DNA from: Oscillospiraceae bacterium
GTDB lineage: Bacteria > Bacillota > Clostridia > Oscillospirales > Acutalibacteraceae
Reading direction: 5' to 3'
DNA: 64,000 nucleotides
Assembly (NCBI GenBank): GCA_015066635.1
Contig: SVOA01000002.1
Coordinates: 62,001 to 126,000 of the forward strand
A program made the translations under genes and the position numbers. Of this stretch, positions 31,325-34,257 are shown one piece after another. Each line of letters begins with the position of its first letter. The first letter of the stretch is position 1. Below the pieces are notes generated by a model, which was given only the letters and a program-made list of their open reading frames with translations, was not told the origin of the DNA and did not search any database.

Positions 31325-32257
31325 TCAGTCAGCAAAAAGAGGGGTGGAAAGGTATCTGTCGCCCGTATCGGGGAAGAGTACGACTATCTTTTTGCCTTCG
31401 TTTTCGGGACGGCTTGCAACGTTTACCGCTGCGGCAAGAGCCGCACCCGATGAAATTCCGACAAGTACGCCTTCGCTTCTGCCGACAAGTCTGCCGTATT
31501 TGAAAGCGTCCGCATCGTCAACTGCGATTATTTCGTCATAAACCGATGTGTCGAGTACCTCGGGAACAAAGCCGGCGCCGATTCCCTGAATTTTATGAGC
31601 ACCCGGAGTTCCTTTTGAAAGCACGGGGCTGCCCGACGGCTCGGCGGCAACAACCTTGACAGAGGGCTTCTTTTCTTTGAGATATTTGCCCGTACCCGTA
31701 ACGGTTCCGCCCGTTCCTACGCCTGCTACGAAGAAGTCAACTTCTCCGTCCGTATCGCTGTAAATCTCGGGACCCGTAGTGCTGTAATGGGCCTCGGGGT
31801 TTGCGGGGTTGGTAAACTGTGAAGGAATAAAGCTGCCGGGAATTTCCGCGGCCAATTCCTCGGCCTTTGCAATAGCGCCCTTCATACCCTTGACGCCCTC
31901 GGTCAGAACAAGCTCTGCGCCGTACGCCTTCATAAGCTGTCTGCGCTCAACCGACATGGTTTCGGGCATTACAATAATAATTCTGTATCCTCTTGCCGCC
32001 GCAACGGAAGCAAGACCTATACCCGTGTTTCCCGATGTGGGCTCGATAATAACGGAATCTTTTTTTAGAATTCCGTCCGCCTCGGCTTTGTCAAGCATTG
32101 CCTTGGCAATTCTGTCCTTAACGGAGCCTGCGGGGTTAAAGTATTCCAGCTTTGCATATATTTTTGCCTTGAGTCCGAGTTCAGACTTGATATGTGTAAG
32201 TTCAAGCAGAGGTGTTCCTCCTATGAGAAGGTCTGCAGATTTAAAAATTTTTGACAT
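31325..32257 (-). CDS. cysK: Cysteine synthase (O-acetylserine sulfhydrylase)
   Basis: A 310-residue PLP enzyme that makes cysteine from O-acetylserine and sulfide. The PLP lysine is in [11 protein letters not shown] (about 46), the substrate loop is [12 protein letters not shown], and the phosphate-binding loop is [12 protein letters not shown]. The C-terminal SSGAALAA is also present. Full length. It follows the homocysteine-forming metY gene by 15 bases with a normal ribosome site, so both sulfide-fixing reactions are co-expressed. The operon begins with an Rrf2-type operator and a leader ORF ending in cysteine codons. Confidence 0.94.
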
Positions 32258-32272
32258 AATAATTACTCCTTT

Positions 32273-33562
32273 TTATAATTCTGATACGGCCCTGAACGCA
32301 CCGTCAAGGTCCGCAATAATATCGTCTATATGTTCCGTGCCTATTGAAAGTCTGATTGTATTGGGATGGATATTCTGACTCTCAAGCTCCTCTGTACTCA
32401 GCTGACTGTGAGTGGTTGTTGCGGGATGAATTACAAGACTCTTTACATCGGCAACGTTTGCGAGTATGGAGAAGATTTTAAGCGAATCAATAAATTCCTT
32501 TGCCTCGCGCTCCCCGCCTTTTATGTCAAAGGTAAAGATGGAACCTGCTCCGTTGGGGAAATACCTGTCGTATAATTCCTTATACCGTGAGTCAAGCGAA
32601 GGATGGTTGATTTTCTCAACAAGCGGATGGCTGTTAAGGTAGTCAAGTACCTTCTTTGTATTCTCAACATGTCTCTCAAGGCGCAGGGATAAGGTTTCGG
32701 TTCCCTGCAAAAGCAGAAATGCATTGAACGGGGAAATTGCCGCGCCCGTGTCGCGCAGTATTATGGCTCTGATATAGGTTACGAAAGCCGCCGCGCCGAC
32801 AGCGTCCGAAAAGCTTATGCCGTGATAACTCGGATTGCCCTCGGAAATGTGCGGATATTTGCCCGACTTTTTCCAGTCAAAGTTTCCGCTGTCAATTATT
32901 ATACCACCTAAAGTAGTGCCGTGTCCACCTATGAATTTTGTCGCCGAGTGAACAACTATGTCTGCGCCGTGCTCAATCGGGCGAAGCAAAAACGGAGTGG
33001 TAAAGGTTGAATCAACAACAAGAGGTATGGAATGACGGTGTGCAATTTCGGCAACGGCGTCAATGTCGATTATATTGGAATTGGGATTGCCCAGAGTTTC
33101 AATGAATATCGCTTTGGTGTTGTCCTTGATTGCTTTTTCAAAATTGCTTACATCGTCCGGGTCAACAAAATCGGTTTCAACGCCGTAAAGCGGGAAGGTG
33201 TGTGCAAGGTAGTTGTATGTGCCGCCGTAGATTGTTTTGGCGGCAACAATTCTGTCGCCGGAATGTGCAAGCGCCTGAAGGGAGTACGATATTGCCGAAG
33301 CTCCGCTTGCGGTTGCGAGCGCCGCAACGCCGCCCTCAAGCGCGGCAATTCTCTTTTCCAGAACGTCCTGAGTTGAGTTTGTAAGGCGTCCGTAGATGTT
33401 GCCTGCATCTGCGAGTCCGAAGCGAGCCTGAGCGTGCTCGGAATCTCTGAAAACATAACTTGTGGTCTGATATATCGGAACCGCTCTTGCGTCCGATGCG
33501 GGATCGGGGTTCTCCTGCCCTACATGAAGCTGGAGAGTTTCAAATTTATAACTGTTACTCAT
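32273..33562 (-). CDS. metY: O-acetylhomoserine sulfhydrylase (homocysteine-forming)
   Basis: A 429-residue Cys/Met-metabolism PLP enzyme, best matched to O-acetyl-L-homoserine aminocarboxypropyltransferase, which fixes sulfide into homocysteine for methionine synthesis. The N-terminus KFETLQLHVGQENPDPAS and the PLP lysine in HSATKFIGGHGTT (about 209) are typical. The C-terminus LRLSIGTEHIDDIIADL is also typical. Weaker alternatives are cystathionine gamma-synthase or beta-lyase; the longer length and the YQTTSYVF region favour MetY. It is the first structural gene after the leader ORF. Confidence 0.88.
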   Translation of the reverse strand: MSNSYKFETLQLHVGQENPDPASDARAVPIYQTTSYVFRDSEHAQARFGLADAGNIYGRLTNSTQDVLEKRIAALEGGVAALATASGASAISYSLQALAHSGDRIVAAKTIYGGTYNYLAHTFPLYGVETDFVDPDDVSNFEKAIKDNTKAIFIETLGNPNSNIIDIDAVAEIAHRHSIPLVVDSTFTTPFLLRPIEHGADIVVHSATKFIGGHGTTLGGIIIDSGNFDWKKSGKYPHISEGNPSYHGISFSDAVGAAAFVTYIRAIILRDTGAAISPFNAFLLLQGTETLSLRLERHVENTKKVLDYLNSHPLVEKINHPSLDSRYKELYDRYFPNGAGSIFTFDIKGGEREAKEFIDSLKIFSILANVADVKSLVIHPATTTHSQLSTEELESQNIHPNTIRLSIGTEHIDDIIADLDGAFRAVSEL

Positions 33563-33611
33563 GATGATAAAATCCTTTCAATAATAAAATACTTTTGGTT
33601 TAGTTTCAGTG

Positions 33612-33680
33612 TCAACAGTAACAGTACATTCGTCCGAACCGATAATTCTGTCTTAACAGTGTTACGAATAAAAATCTCAT
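33612..33680 (-). CDS. 22-residue leader peptide ending in Cys codons, candidate attenuator of metY-cysK
   Basis: Minus-strand ATG at 33680 with GAGGG eight bases upstream opens a 22-codon frame. It begins MRFLFVTLLR and ends Met-Tyr-Cys-Tyr-Cys-stop (TAC TGT TAC TGT TGA). It lies entirely inside the metY leader, about 50 bases after the predicted start point and about 50 before the metY start. Clustered codons for the pathway product next to the stop are the hallmark of amino-acid-responsive leader peptides. I found no clear terminator hairpin downstream, so the control may act on translation rather than transcription. Too short for routine gene callers. Confidence 0.6.
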   Translation of the reverse strand: MRFLFVTLLRQNYRFGRMYCYC

Positions 33681-33702
33681 TTTTTCGCCCTCGTTTCTTT
33701 TA

Positions 33703-33719
33703 CCTACCTTTTTTGTAGG
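33703..33719. promoter_or_regulatory. Operator B (CCTA-N9-TAGG) downstream of the metY start point
   Basis: Plus-strand CCTACCTTTTTTGTAGG, a 17-base inverted repeat with the same CCTA-N9-TAGG form as operator A, located about 8-24 bases into the transcript. Confidence 0.65.
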
Positions 33720-33733
33720 TTATTATGTTTTGA

Positions 33734-33762
33734 ATTATATCAACATTTTCCTACTTTGTCAA
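33734..33762 (-). promoter_or_regulatory. Perfect-consensus promoter of the metY-cysK operon
   Basis: Minus-strand TTGACA, 17 bases, TATAAT; start point about 33727. A promoter this strong next to inverted repeats suggests control by repression. Confidence 0.85.
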
Positions 33763-33828: not shown

Positions 33829-34257
33829 TCAGATTTGATAATCTGCCGATGTTTCGGGATTCAGCAGGTCTTTGAGAGTTACGGAATAAAGATAATTATT
33901 TATTATCGTATTAAGGTTTTCCCACATAGGCAGCGTCTTGCACTCCGAAGCCTTACTGCAGGTGTTGGGAGTTGAGTCAAGGCAGGCAACGGGAGCAAGA
34001 GAGCCCTCCGTCAGTTTTAAAATCTCGCCTACCGAATATTCCTCGGGCTTACGGGAAAGGCAGTATCCGCCTTTTTTTCCGCGCAGGGAATAAACAAGTC
34101 CTGCGCGCGCAAGTATTACAATAATGCTCTCGAGGTATTTCTCGCTGATTTCCTGCTCCCTGGCAACCGTCTGCAAAGGGACAAGCTTGCCCTCCTCCTT
34201 CTCGGCAAGAGAGAGCATAACTCTGAGCGCATAACGTCCTTTGGTTGATATGAGCAT
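33829..34257 (-). CDS. Rrf2-family transcriptional regulator with IscR-like cysteines
   Basis: A 142-residue winged-helix regulator (STKGRYALRVMLSLAE start, then the recognition region ISEKYLESIIVILARAGLV and GKKGGYCLSR). Three cysteines, C92, C100 and C106 (C-x7-C-x5-C), lie where IscR carries its Fe-S cluster (C92, C98, C104). CymR, the B. subtilis cysteine regulator of the same family, lacks this cluster. It sits directly upstream of metY-cysK and has a related operator on its own promoter, so it most likely represses that operon and itself. The signal could be Fe-S status, cysteine or sulfide. Confidence 0.88.
   Translation of the reverse strand: MLISTKGRYALRVMLSLAEKEEGKLVPLQTVAREQEISEKYLESIIVILARAGLVYSLRGKKGGYCLSRKPEEYSVGEILKLTEGSLAPVACLDSTPNTCSKASECKTLPMWENLNTIINNYLYSVTLKDLLNPETSADYQI

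Follow-up and report, generated by a model that had tools for sequence, protein, structure and literature searches.

The locus raises the question of whether a 22-codon open reading frame in front of the metY and cysK genes of an Oscillospiraceae bacterium is a regulatory gene and, if so, which part of it acts as the sensor. The window is the whole stretch of DNA that was analysed (64,000 nucleotides of contig SVOA01000002.1), and all of its features given below lie on the minus strand. The upstream open reading frame (uORF, 33612–33680) encodes MRFLFVTLLRQNYRFGRMYCYC and ends Tyr-Cys-Tyr-Cys-stop, with a Shine-Dalgarno (SD) sequence, GAGGG, at 33688–33692, 7 nt before its ATG. The original prediction had described this frame accurately, leaving the strand unstated, and had proposed its Cys codons as a cysteine sensor. 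The genes that it had named behind the frame were both above cut-off: metY (O-acetylhomoserine/O-acetylserine sulfhydrylase, 32273–33562), with the SD sequence AAAGGA at 33573–33578, scored 611.2 bits with TIGR01326 (cut-off 495.1), and cysK (cysteine synthase, 31325–32257) scored 445.4 bits with TIGR01139 (cut-off 350.95).

A sigma-A-type promoter, TTGACA-17-TATAAT (33734–33762), matched the consensus at 12 of 12 positions and carried a TG before the -10 element. Since the -10 element ends at 33734 and the uORF, preceded by its own GAGGG, begins at 33680, the uORF is not leaderless, as judged from this predicted promoter. Just 3' of the promoter lies an inverted repeat, ACCTAC-AAAAAAG-GTAGGT (33702–33720), whose arms pair in the predicted fold and which is a candidate operator of the adjacent, upstream Rrf2-family regulator (33829–34257). 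This regulator was IscR/CymR-like (PF02082, E 6.2e-38) and fell under both equivalog cut-offs, with 107.4 of 195 bits for the CymR model and 110.8 of 207.55 bits for the IscR model. By eye, similar inverted repeats were seen at the promoters of relatives (CCAACCT..GGTAGGT or CCATACT..CCGATAGGAAAT); together with that of the window they perhaps represent a putative CymR/IscR-like operator. The Rrf2 gene and the window's repeat suggest that this species has transcriptional control as a second layer. An adjacent Rrf2 gene is not a general trait of the leaders, as one was found upstream on the same strand at only 11 and upstream on the opposite strand at only 12 of 158.

Whether the frame is a gene at all was answered by its conservation. 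With a threshold of E 1e-60, metY-like matches were obtained in 39 of 39 genus genomes, several of which had only a distant paralogue of ~44% identity. At loci of true metY orthologues with upstream sequence, a uORF stood before metY in 22 of 23 cases (L025, a partial gene with no upstream sequence, and three second genus copies without a locus were left out). The genus uORFs had similar endings: 16 were of type I, mostly (F)xxLLRxN(F/Y)RFGRM, with NFRNGRM in L012; five were of type II, QCNWRNSRMC; and one, L022, was different (YNRGTWRMCYCCC). In the one genus exception, L003, which has no leader, metY directly follows a NifU-like gene, named by eye. The same arrangement, metY directly behind a NifU-like iron-sulfur scaffold gene (by eye) and no leader, was noticed at L243, L247, L250 and L252.

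Outside the genus, a hidden Markov model (HMM) of the peptide gave 67 matches at E < 1e-3 in 300 family genomes, the own genome and other genus genomes counted, and all 27 non-genus loci examined had a CGA-AUG uORF before metY or metQ. The window leader matched in its own genome with E 1.2e-11, which is not independent because the window's peptide is in the model. At class level 39 of 391 genomes matched at E 0.01 or better, the peptides examined representing 15 families. The phylum sample of 299 yielded only the own genome and, at E 0.004 to 0.01, three weak matches; in two of these three, for which the peptide was seen, AGA and not CGA preceded the ATG. A DNA pattern found at least 120 stretches in named genomes; among the matches listed, these were mostly from Clostridia of several groups, including Oscillospiraceae, Lachnospiraceae, Christensenella, Emergencia and Cuneatibacter. 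The type II DNA pattern matched 14 of the 300 family genomes at 14 loci (L062–L075), of which only L068, itself in the genus, was a clear metY leader, most others being chance-like. No Pfam or NCBIfam model matched any of the six leader peptides searched. As a control, 402 further genes, from the surroundings of the leaders and from the window, were inspected, and an SD-led uORF with in-frame CGA-ATG was found at 5 of them, two of which (L174 and L168) look real. A chance ORF was ruled out by the uORF conservation in the genus and by this gene control. The claim that the window's ORF is a regulatory leader peptide gene was therefore borne out by its relatives, and we regard it as virtually certain that the gene is a conserved one of this kind.

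The most constrained part of the leaders was found to be the dicodon CGA-AUG (Arg17-Met18, 33627–33632 in the window), directly before Tyr-Cys-Tyr-Cys. In 75 leaders from protein-level searches, residue 17 was Arg encoded by CGA in 75/75 and residue 18 was Met in 75/75, in a codon table that is not fully free of codon bias, as its genus and family leaders were located by CGAATG. No peptide-HMM locus was lost to that step, and 27 class-level leaders entered with any Arg codon allowed; L022 was left out because of its other core. In the same 75 leaders Arg14 was present in 75/75 with all six Arg codons in use, and Arg10 in 70/75 with at least five. By its synonymous changes at the Arg, Leu and Gly codons, the uORF is probably a translated reading frame kept ahead of pathway genes, as is sought in a control-codon attenuator.

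A codon-free sample was made from metY orthologues (E 1e-140 or better) in 150 family genomes at least 90% complete, giving 76 upstream regions from 75 genomes. Of these, 58 carried an SD-led uORF with in-frame CGA-ATG, the next best NNN-ATG being found at 4, and Arg codons other than CGA stood before ATG at no more than 1 of the 76. In the class sample, the CGA-ATG uORF occurred at 16 of 61 metY upstreams, with 3 for the next best and at most 2 for other Arg codons. By the same rule, 18/76 family and 45/61 class upstreams had no such uORF, a count that includes L301, which nevertheless holds CGAATG and is the same as leader L196. With a stricter rule, the N-x-R-x-x-RM core was recognised in 29 of 67 family regions with a start found; many other family leaders, for example MKISKYFKPYKSRTERMCCC, MPVKKRTQQPDPVFKERMCRSC and MKTKKYRLNNQNRPLFLHERMCASCRCNRK (each followed by a stop), had only RM obviously in common with FRFGRM.

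CGA also tended to stand before sulfur codons after Met18. Among CGA-NNN pairs in the family sample, CGA-AUG was counted 58 times and CGA-UGU (Arg-Cys) 14 times, with 3 for the next. After Met18, 38 of 95 Arg codons in 182 leaders were CGA; CGA-Cys occurred 32 times and CGC-Cys 8 times. Among 56 representatives below 70% identity, CGA after Met18 preceded Cys in 8 of 8 cases. The frequency of CGA-Cys fits a placement of CGA before sulfur codons. Arg14 was also CGA in 40 of 182 leaders, mostly with no adjoining sulfur codon (codon 15 was Phe or Asn in 72/75), so CGA is not exclusive to sites before Met or Cys.

Conservation that spans six bases could also mean that CGAAUG is kept as an RNA or DNA motif, such as a protein-binding site, an RNA polymerase pause or an editing site, and not as codons. 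The reading frame argued otherwise: CGA/AUG lay in the open SD-led frame at 57 of 62 CGAATG sites, against 3 and 4 for the other frames, and therefore the codons matter, not only the bases. The bases flanking CGAATG also vary, the preceding codon being GGA in 41 leaders, GGG in 16, GGT in 11 and others in the rest, and Rfam 15 gave no match at the gathering score in the window leader or in 16 further leader loci. A motif of this kind is a highly improbable explanation. The TadA editing motif is UACG, and mRNA editing by TadA was rejected as the base before CGA varies; the RNA polymerase pause consensus was not needed, since the frame and CGA are fixed and the following G is not. A riboswitch or T-box was likewise rejected from the Rfam result in the leaders tested. 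The window leader as a whole had a fold that was not unusually stable (z -1.07). Of 300 family genomes, 237 had a SAM riboswitch match somewhere, among them the own genome with one (at G000:C3:36540-36636), and the leader as a simple replacement of that riboswitch was thus not supported.

For the decoding of CGA, the tRNAs of the own genome were collected; 40 matches were obtained, 39 of which were given an anticodon, and one partial match at a contig end was unrecognised. The Arg anticodons found were TCT, CCT, CCG and ACG. Because only ACG fits among these, CGA would be read by tRNA-Arg(ACG) through A/I34 wobble; a tRNA-Arg(TCG) may have been missed, the genome being 97.38% complete. CGA was also the rarest Arg codon in the window's genes (10 of 729). 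Given this rarity and the sole wobble reading by tRNA-Arg(ACG), the CGA-AUG step should be slow; slow reading of it in Clostridia is a proposal. In a his-leader assay in Salmonella, CGU and CGC were decoded more rapidly than CGA, and each Arg codon except AGG showed its highest de-attenuation when paired with CGA (PMC4046918). As a point against slow reading, B. subtilis is reported to use CGA and to decode it with little difficulty (PMC10454642).

The peptide of type I leaders is itself conserved, and this is where the main rival explanation arises. The nascent chain FxxLLRxN(F/Y)RFGRM might stall inside the exit tunnel while Met18 occupies the P site and codon 19 is Cys or UGA, the trigger being a sulfur metabolite or the arrest being the default, in the style of TnaC or ErmCL. 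Such an arrest would be in line with Asn12 in 75/75 leaders, with the retention of Arg14 under six codons and of Arg10 noted above, with Gly16 in 70/75, and with Arg17 at codon 17 in 169 of 194 leaders. Moreover, among 191 leaders the stop came right after Met18 in 52, and it was UGA in 47 and UAA in 5 of these, which recalls the UGA/RF2 arrest of TnaC (PMC10941005). On the other hand, CGA-AUG stays where the preceding peptide looks unrelated, as in L249 (..SRTERMCCC-stop), L259 (..LHKRMCGSS..) and L262 (..LHERMCASC..), and a peptide effect does not account for why the CGA codon is invariant. Because CGA-AUG uORFs with other peptides stand before metY in the same family, one conserved arrest peptide was rejected as a general account. 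Arrest by the nascent peptide is unlikely on balance, although a type I peptide (Arg10, Asn12, Arg14, Gly16) of nearly fixed length is not needed by simple codon sensing.

The Cys codons that had been singled out as the sensor were under selection near the stop. In 182 distinct leaders, codons 20–24 were Cys in 132 of 486; the backgrounds were 22/910 and 20/910 for the two remaining frames, 24/910 downstream of the stop and 16/2764 over codons 2–16. Among the 191 leaders, Cys occurred within codons 19–24 in 137, and 2 had neither Cys nor the stop after Met18; of the 58 family CGA-ATG uORFs, 46 had Cys within six codons, 6 had the stop right after Met and 6 had neither. (Later counts were made without L096, which has no clear start, L158 at a contig edge, L167, a chance match, and L203, a duplicate of the own leader; L213 is the same place as L308 and was left out.) The Cys codons near the stop are thus strongly selected in most leaders without being invariant. 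Codons of the regulated pathway are accordingly enriched at the control site, by the Cys enrichment and by Met18, as is sought in a control-codon attenuator.

It is possible in principle that starvation for Cys-tRNA alone matters and that CGA-AUG is incidental. The in-frame Cys enrichment is strong, and cysK lay downstream of 29 of 40 leaders of the Cys class versus 5 of 14 leaders with the Met18 stop (p 0.024, uncorrected and ignoring relatedness). Mycobacterial polycysteine leaders reportedly provide a tested precedent (PMC9031893). However, Cys sensing cannot be universal because 52 of the 191 leaders have no Cys codon after Met18, the Cys codons are less conserved than CGA-AUG, and metNIQ genes are among the targets. 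Attenuation by Cys codons alone is accordingly quite improbable, more so than arrest by the peptide. In the original prediction the leader and the Cys codons were recognised correctly and the sensor incompletely: the comparison of relatives that it called for confirmed a conserved uORF and also showed that the Cys codons are absent from the leaders stopping after Met18, so that one of the refuting outcomes it had named applies in part.

The targets were mainly metY. The gene next to the first 127 leaders was metY in 105, metQ in 13, metN in 1, a contig edge in 6 and other in 2; among 194 candidate leaders including later loci, it was metY in 163, metQ in 18, metN in 2 and unassigned in 11. One of these metN loci, L174, begins instead with a taurine/sulfonate/nitrate-type permease, and the metQ of L092 was far above the cut-off of the NlpA lipoprotein family (PF03180) and below that of TIGR00363. 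Behind metY, cysK followed on the same strand at 34 of 54 loci with more than 3 kb downstream. When metQ was taken regardless of leader, 10 places were found in 9 of 100 family genomes, and a CGA-AUG uORF was present at 6 of the 10, gene starts being taken from the first-pass setting that mis-set some metY starts; the own genome had no such metQ in the same search. Cysteine may not be the sole signal because the same leader also precedes the methionine transporter genes metNIQ.

Several side loci were noted. At L174 the leader MKLYFPLLLRANFRFGRM, followed by a stop, lies ~60 nt before the taurine/sulfonate/nitrate-type ABC permease, for which all NCBIfam models were below cut-off, and the regulon may thus include sulfur scavenging. 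At L168 a uORF of the CRM..SRA type (MLEANFNAAMFYCRMCTSRAYPYGRVHSG..) lies ~190 nt before a family 3 amino acid solute-binding protein. No recognised sulfur gene was seen behind L182 (..SNYRFGRMYCCSKMCCCC..), where a very short ORF is next, or behind L125, where an opposite-strand ORF is next; these two are perhaps remnants or insertions.

We then come to the output of the window's leader. The strand ACTGTTACT (33617–33625, codons 19–22) was predicted to pair with AGTAACAGT (33559–33551, metY codons 2–4) with probabilities of 0.77 to 1.0, and this pairing was also present in the minimum free energy fold. The codons of Cys20-Tyr21-Cys22 (TGT TAC TGT, 33615–33623, followed by the UGA stop) overlap the masking strand. 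In this prediction the start A of metY is paired together with codons 2–4, and it is the strand of codons 19–22, not 12–14, that masks. A ribosome placed at codons 14–22 would raise the accessibility of the metY start from 0.19 to 0.30–0.36, in agreement with the proposal that a ribosome at the Cys codons changes access to this start. As had also been stated, there was no clear terminator: in the interval from the uORF to metY, no terminator-like site was found on the transcribed strand. It is probable, and well supported, that the window's leader works through the metY start.

Similar masking was predicted in relatives, mostly through another strand. For the main-gene SD in 110 leaders, the predicted unpaired fraction was 0.315 in RNA without a ribosome; placing one on codon 18 raised it to 0.528, whereas with one on the uORF start it was 0.310. 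With a sliding ribosome (up to 105 leaders), SD access was 0.31–0.33 at codons up to 5, 0.41 at codon 7, 0.50–0.54 at codons 9–19 and 0.39–0.45 at codons 21–27. In a scan of ungapped registers, the best pair fractions lay on one diagonal that joins codons 12–14 with the SD (0.79, six pairs) at covarying positions; ranked solely by covariation score, a register with poor pairing (fraction 0.22) equalled the proposed helix. For 56 representatives below 70% identity, the core-SD duplex had -7.41 kcal/mol with the own partner versus -6.33 kcal/mol with swapped partners (0 of 5000 permutations); the early-uORF control was much weaker and slightly non-random (247/5000). Of the flanking RNA structure that was to be checked, covariation was therefore found in relatives, but the swap test was weak with 14 very divergent representatives (258/5000). 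SD sequences of the GGAA type were found with Phe13 in 21 of 41 leaders and with Tyr13 in 0 of 9 (p 0.006). Since codons 12–14 of the peptide coincide with the anti-SD strand, their conservation counts less clearly for an arrest peptide. In unselected metY samples, 40 type I leaders went from a predicted SD access of 0.34 to one of 0.50 (a rise in 25, a fall in 7); for 25 leaders with a different peptide the predicted unmasking was weak, from 0.48 to 0.53 (a rise in 11, a fall in 5). A leader that masks the SD or start and a stalled ribosome that unmasks it, as in ermC-type systems, were thus found by prediction. In three type II leaders (L005, L009 and L010) the uORF SD, GGAGGCTGTTT, looks by eye able to pair with AAACAGCC, which immediately precedes CGA-AUG; translation of the uORF would then limit itself.

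A second output was seen in a few leaders. Terminator-like elements between the uORF and the gene were found in 6 of 166. In a subclass with a CxRM uORF, comprising L238, L241 and L246 of the family sample and L294 of another family, CGA-AUG stands just before a competing helix of the CUCCCGGGC...GCCCGGGAG type, which overlaps a CCGGG...CCCGG-U-run terminator. The five terminator-type loci had no Rfam match at the gathering score, one weak ctRNA match (E 0.3) being obtained. L244 showed this architecture in part, with no terminator U-run found. The same control dicodon thus seems to act through two outputs, start masking and termination.

Taken together, we favour, with a probability of roughly 0.6, an attenuator that responds to sulfur amino acids through slow reading of CGA-AUG(-Cys). 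Ribosomes would translate the uORF and meet CGA-AUG, usually with Cys codons next. When Met-tRNA or Cys-tRNA is short, the ribosome would dwell at CGA-AUG(-Cys); in the window's species a ribosome on codons 14–22 would cover the strand that pairs with the metY start, so that a lack of sulfur amino acids would allow translation of metY, and of cysK. With prompt reading of the codons, the ribosome would move off, the strand would re-pair and metY would be held down. That CGA-AUG is read slowly, which tRNA runs short and in which direction expression responds are our inferences; both the logic and the targets would fit genes that are switched on when sulfur amino acids are scarce.

Attenuators of the his and trp type carry control codons for the regulated pathway. 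Like them, L238, L241, L246 and L294 have a competing helix and a terminator, whereas the window's leader has no terminator. Judged from the available texts, the closest known systems are mycobacterial polycysteine ORFs and the predicted actinobacterial cys leaders. The former, leaderless short ORFs reportedly described by Canestrari et al. in 2020, likewise place a short Cys-codon ORF before other genes and attenuate by ribosome speed; they are leaderless and poly-Cys, whereas the clostridial family is SD-led, has CGA-AUG before Cys and belongs to another phylum. The candidate leaders of actinobacterial cys operons likewise have Cys runs near the stop and no conserved terminator, but they precede different operons, a Rho-dependent mechanism was suggested for them and the available text mentions no CGA-AUG (PMC1262725). 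In ermC-type attenuators a leader-bound ribosome likewise exposes the following gene's SD or start (PMC10219788); the ermC type uses an antibiotic, whereas a codon- or tRNA-based trigger is proposed here. TnaC likewise has a short conserved leader peptide, and its UGA stop is shared by a subset of the clostridial leaders; it combines arrest by a free ligand with Rho control (PMC10941005), whereas the clostridial peptide is not conserved in all members. No recognised description of the CGA-AUG leader family was found in the open-access literature (titles and starts of abstracts), a scope outside which most subscription papers lie.

A broader reading can be offered tentatively, at somewhat less than even odds: CGA before a sulfur codon may be a dedicated device, in which I:A wobble in the P site makes the next codon (Met in CGA-AUG, Cys in the frequent second CGA-UGU/UGC) hypersensitive to tRNA charging, and which would have been joined more than once with leader peptides of unrelated sequence and with the two outputs, start masking and termination, in a sulfur amino acid regulon across Clostridia. 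Leader peptides are usually recognised through runs of codons for the regulated amino acid. Here the strongest constraint is one synonymous choice, CGA before Met, which is kept across many species while the peptide changes. If the proposed attenuator is true, it would be a natural system with a wobble-limited codon pair as the sensor, it would offer a direct test of how codon context sets the sensitivity to starvation, and it would provide a marker for sulfur regulons in uncultured gut bacteria.
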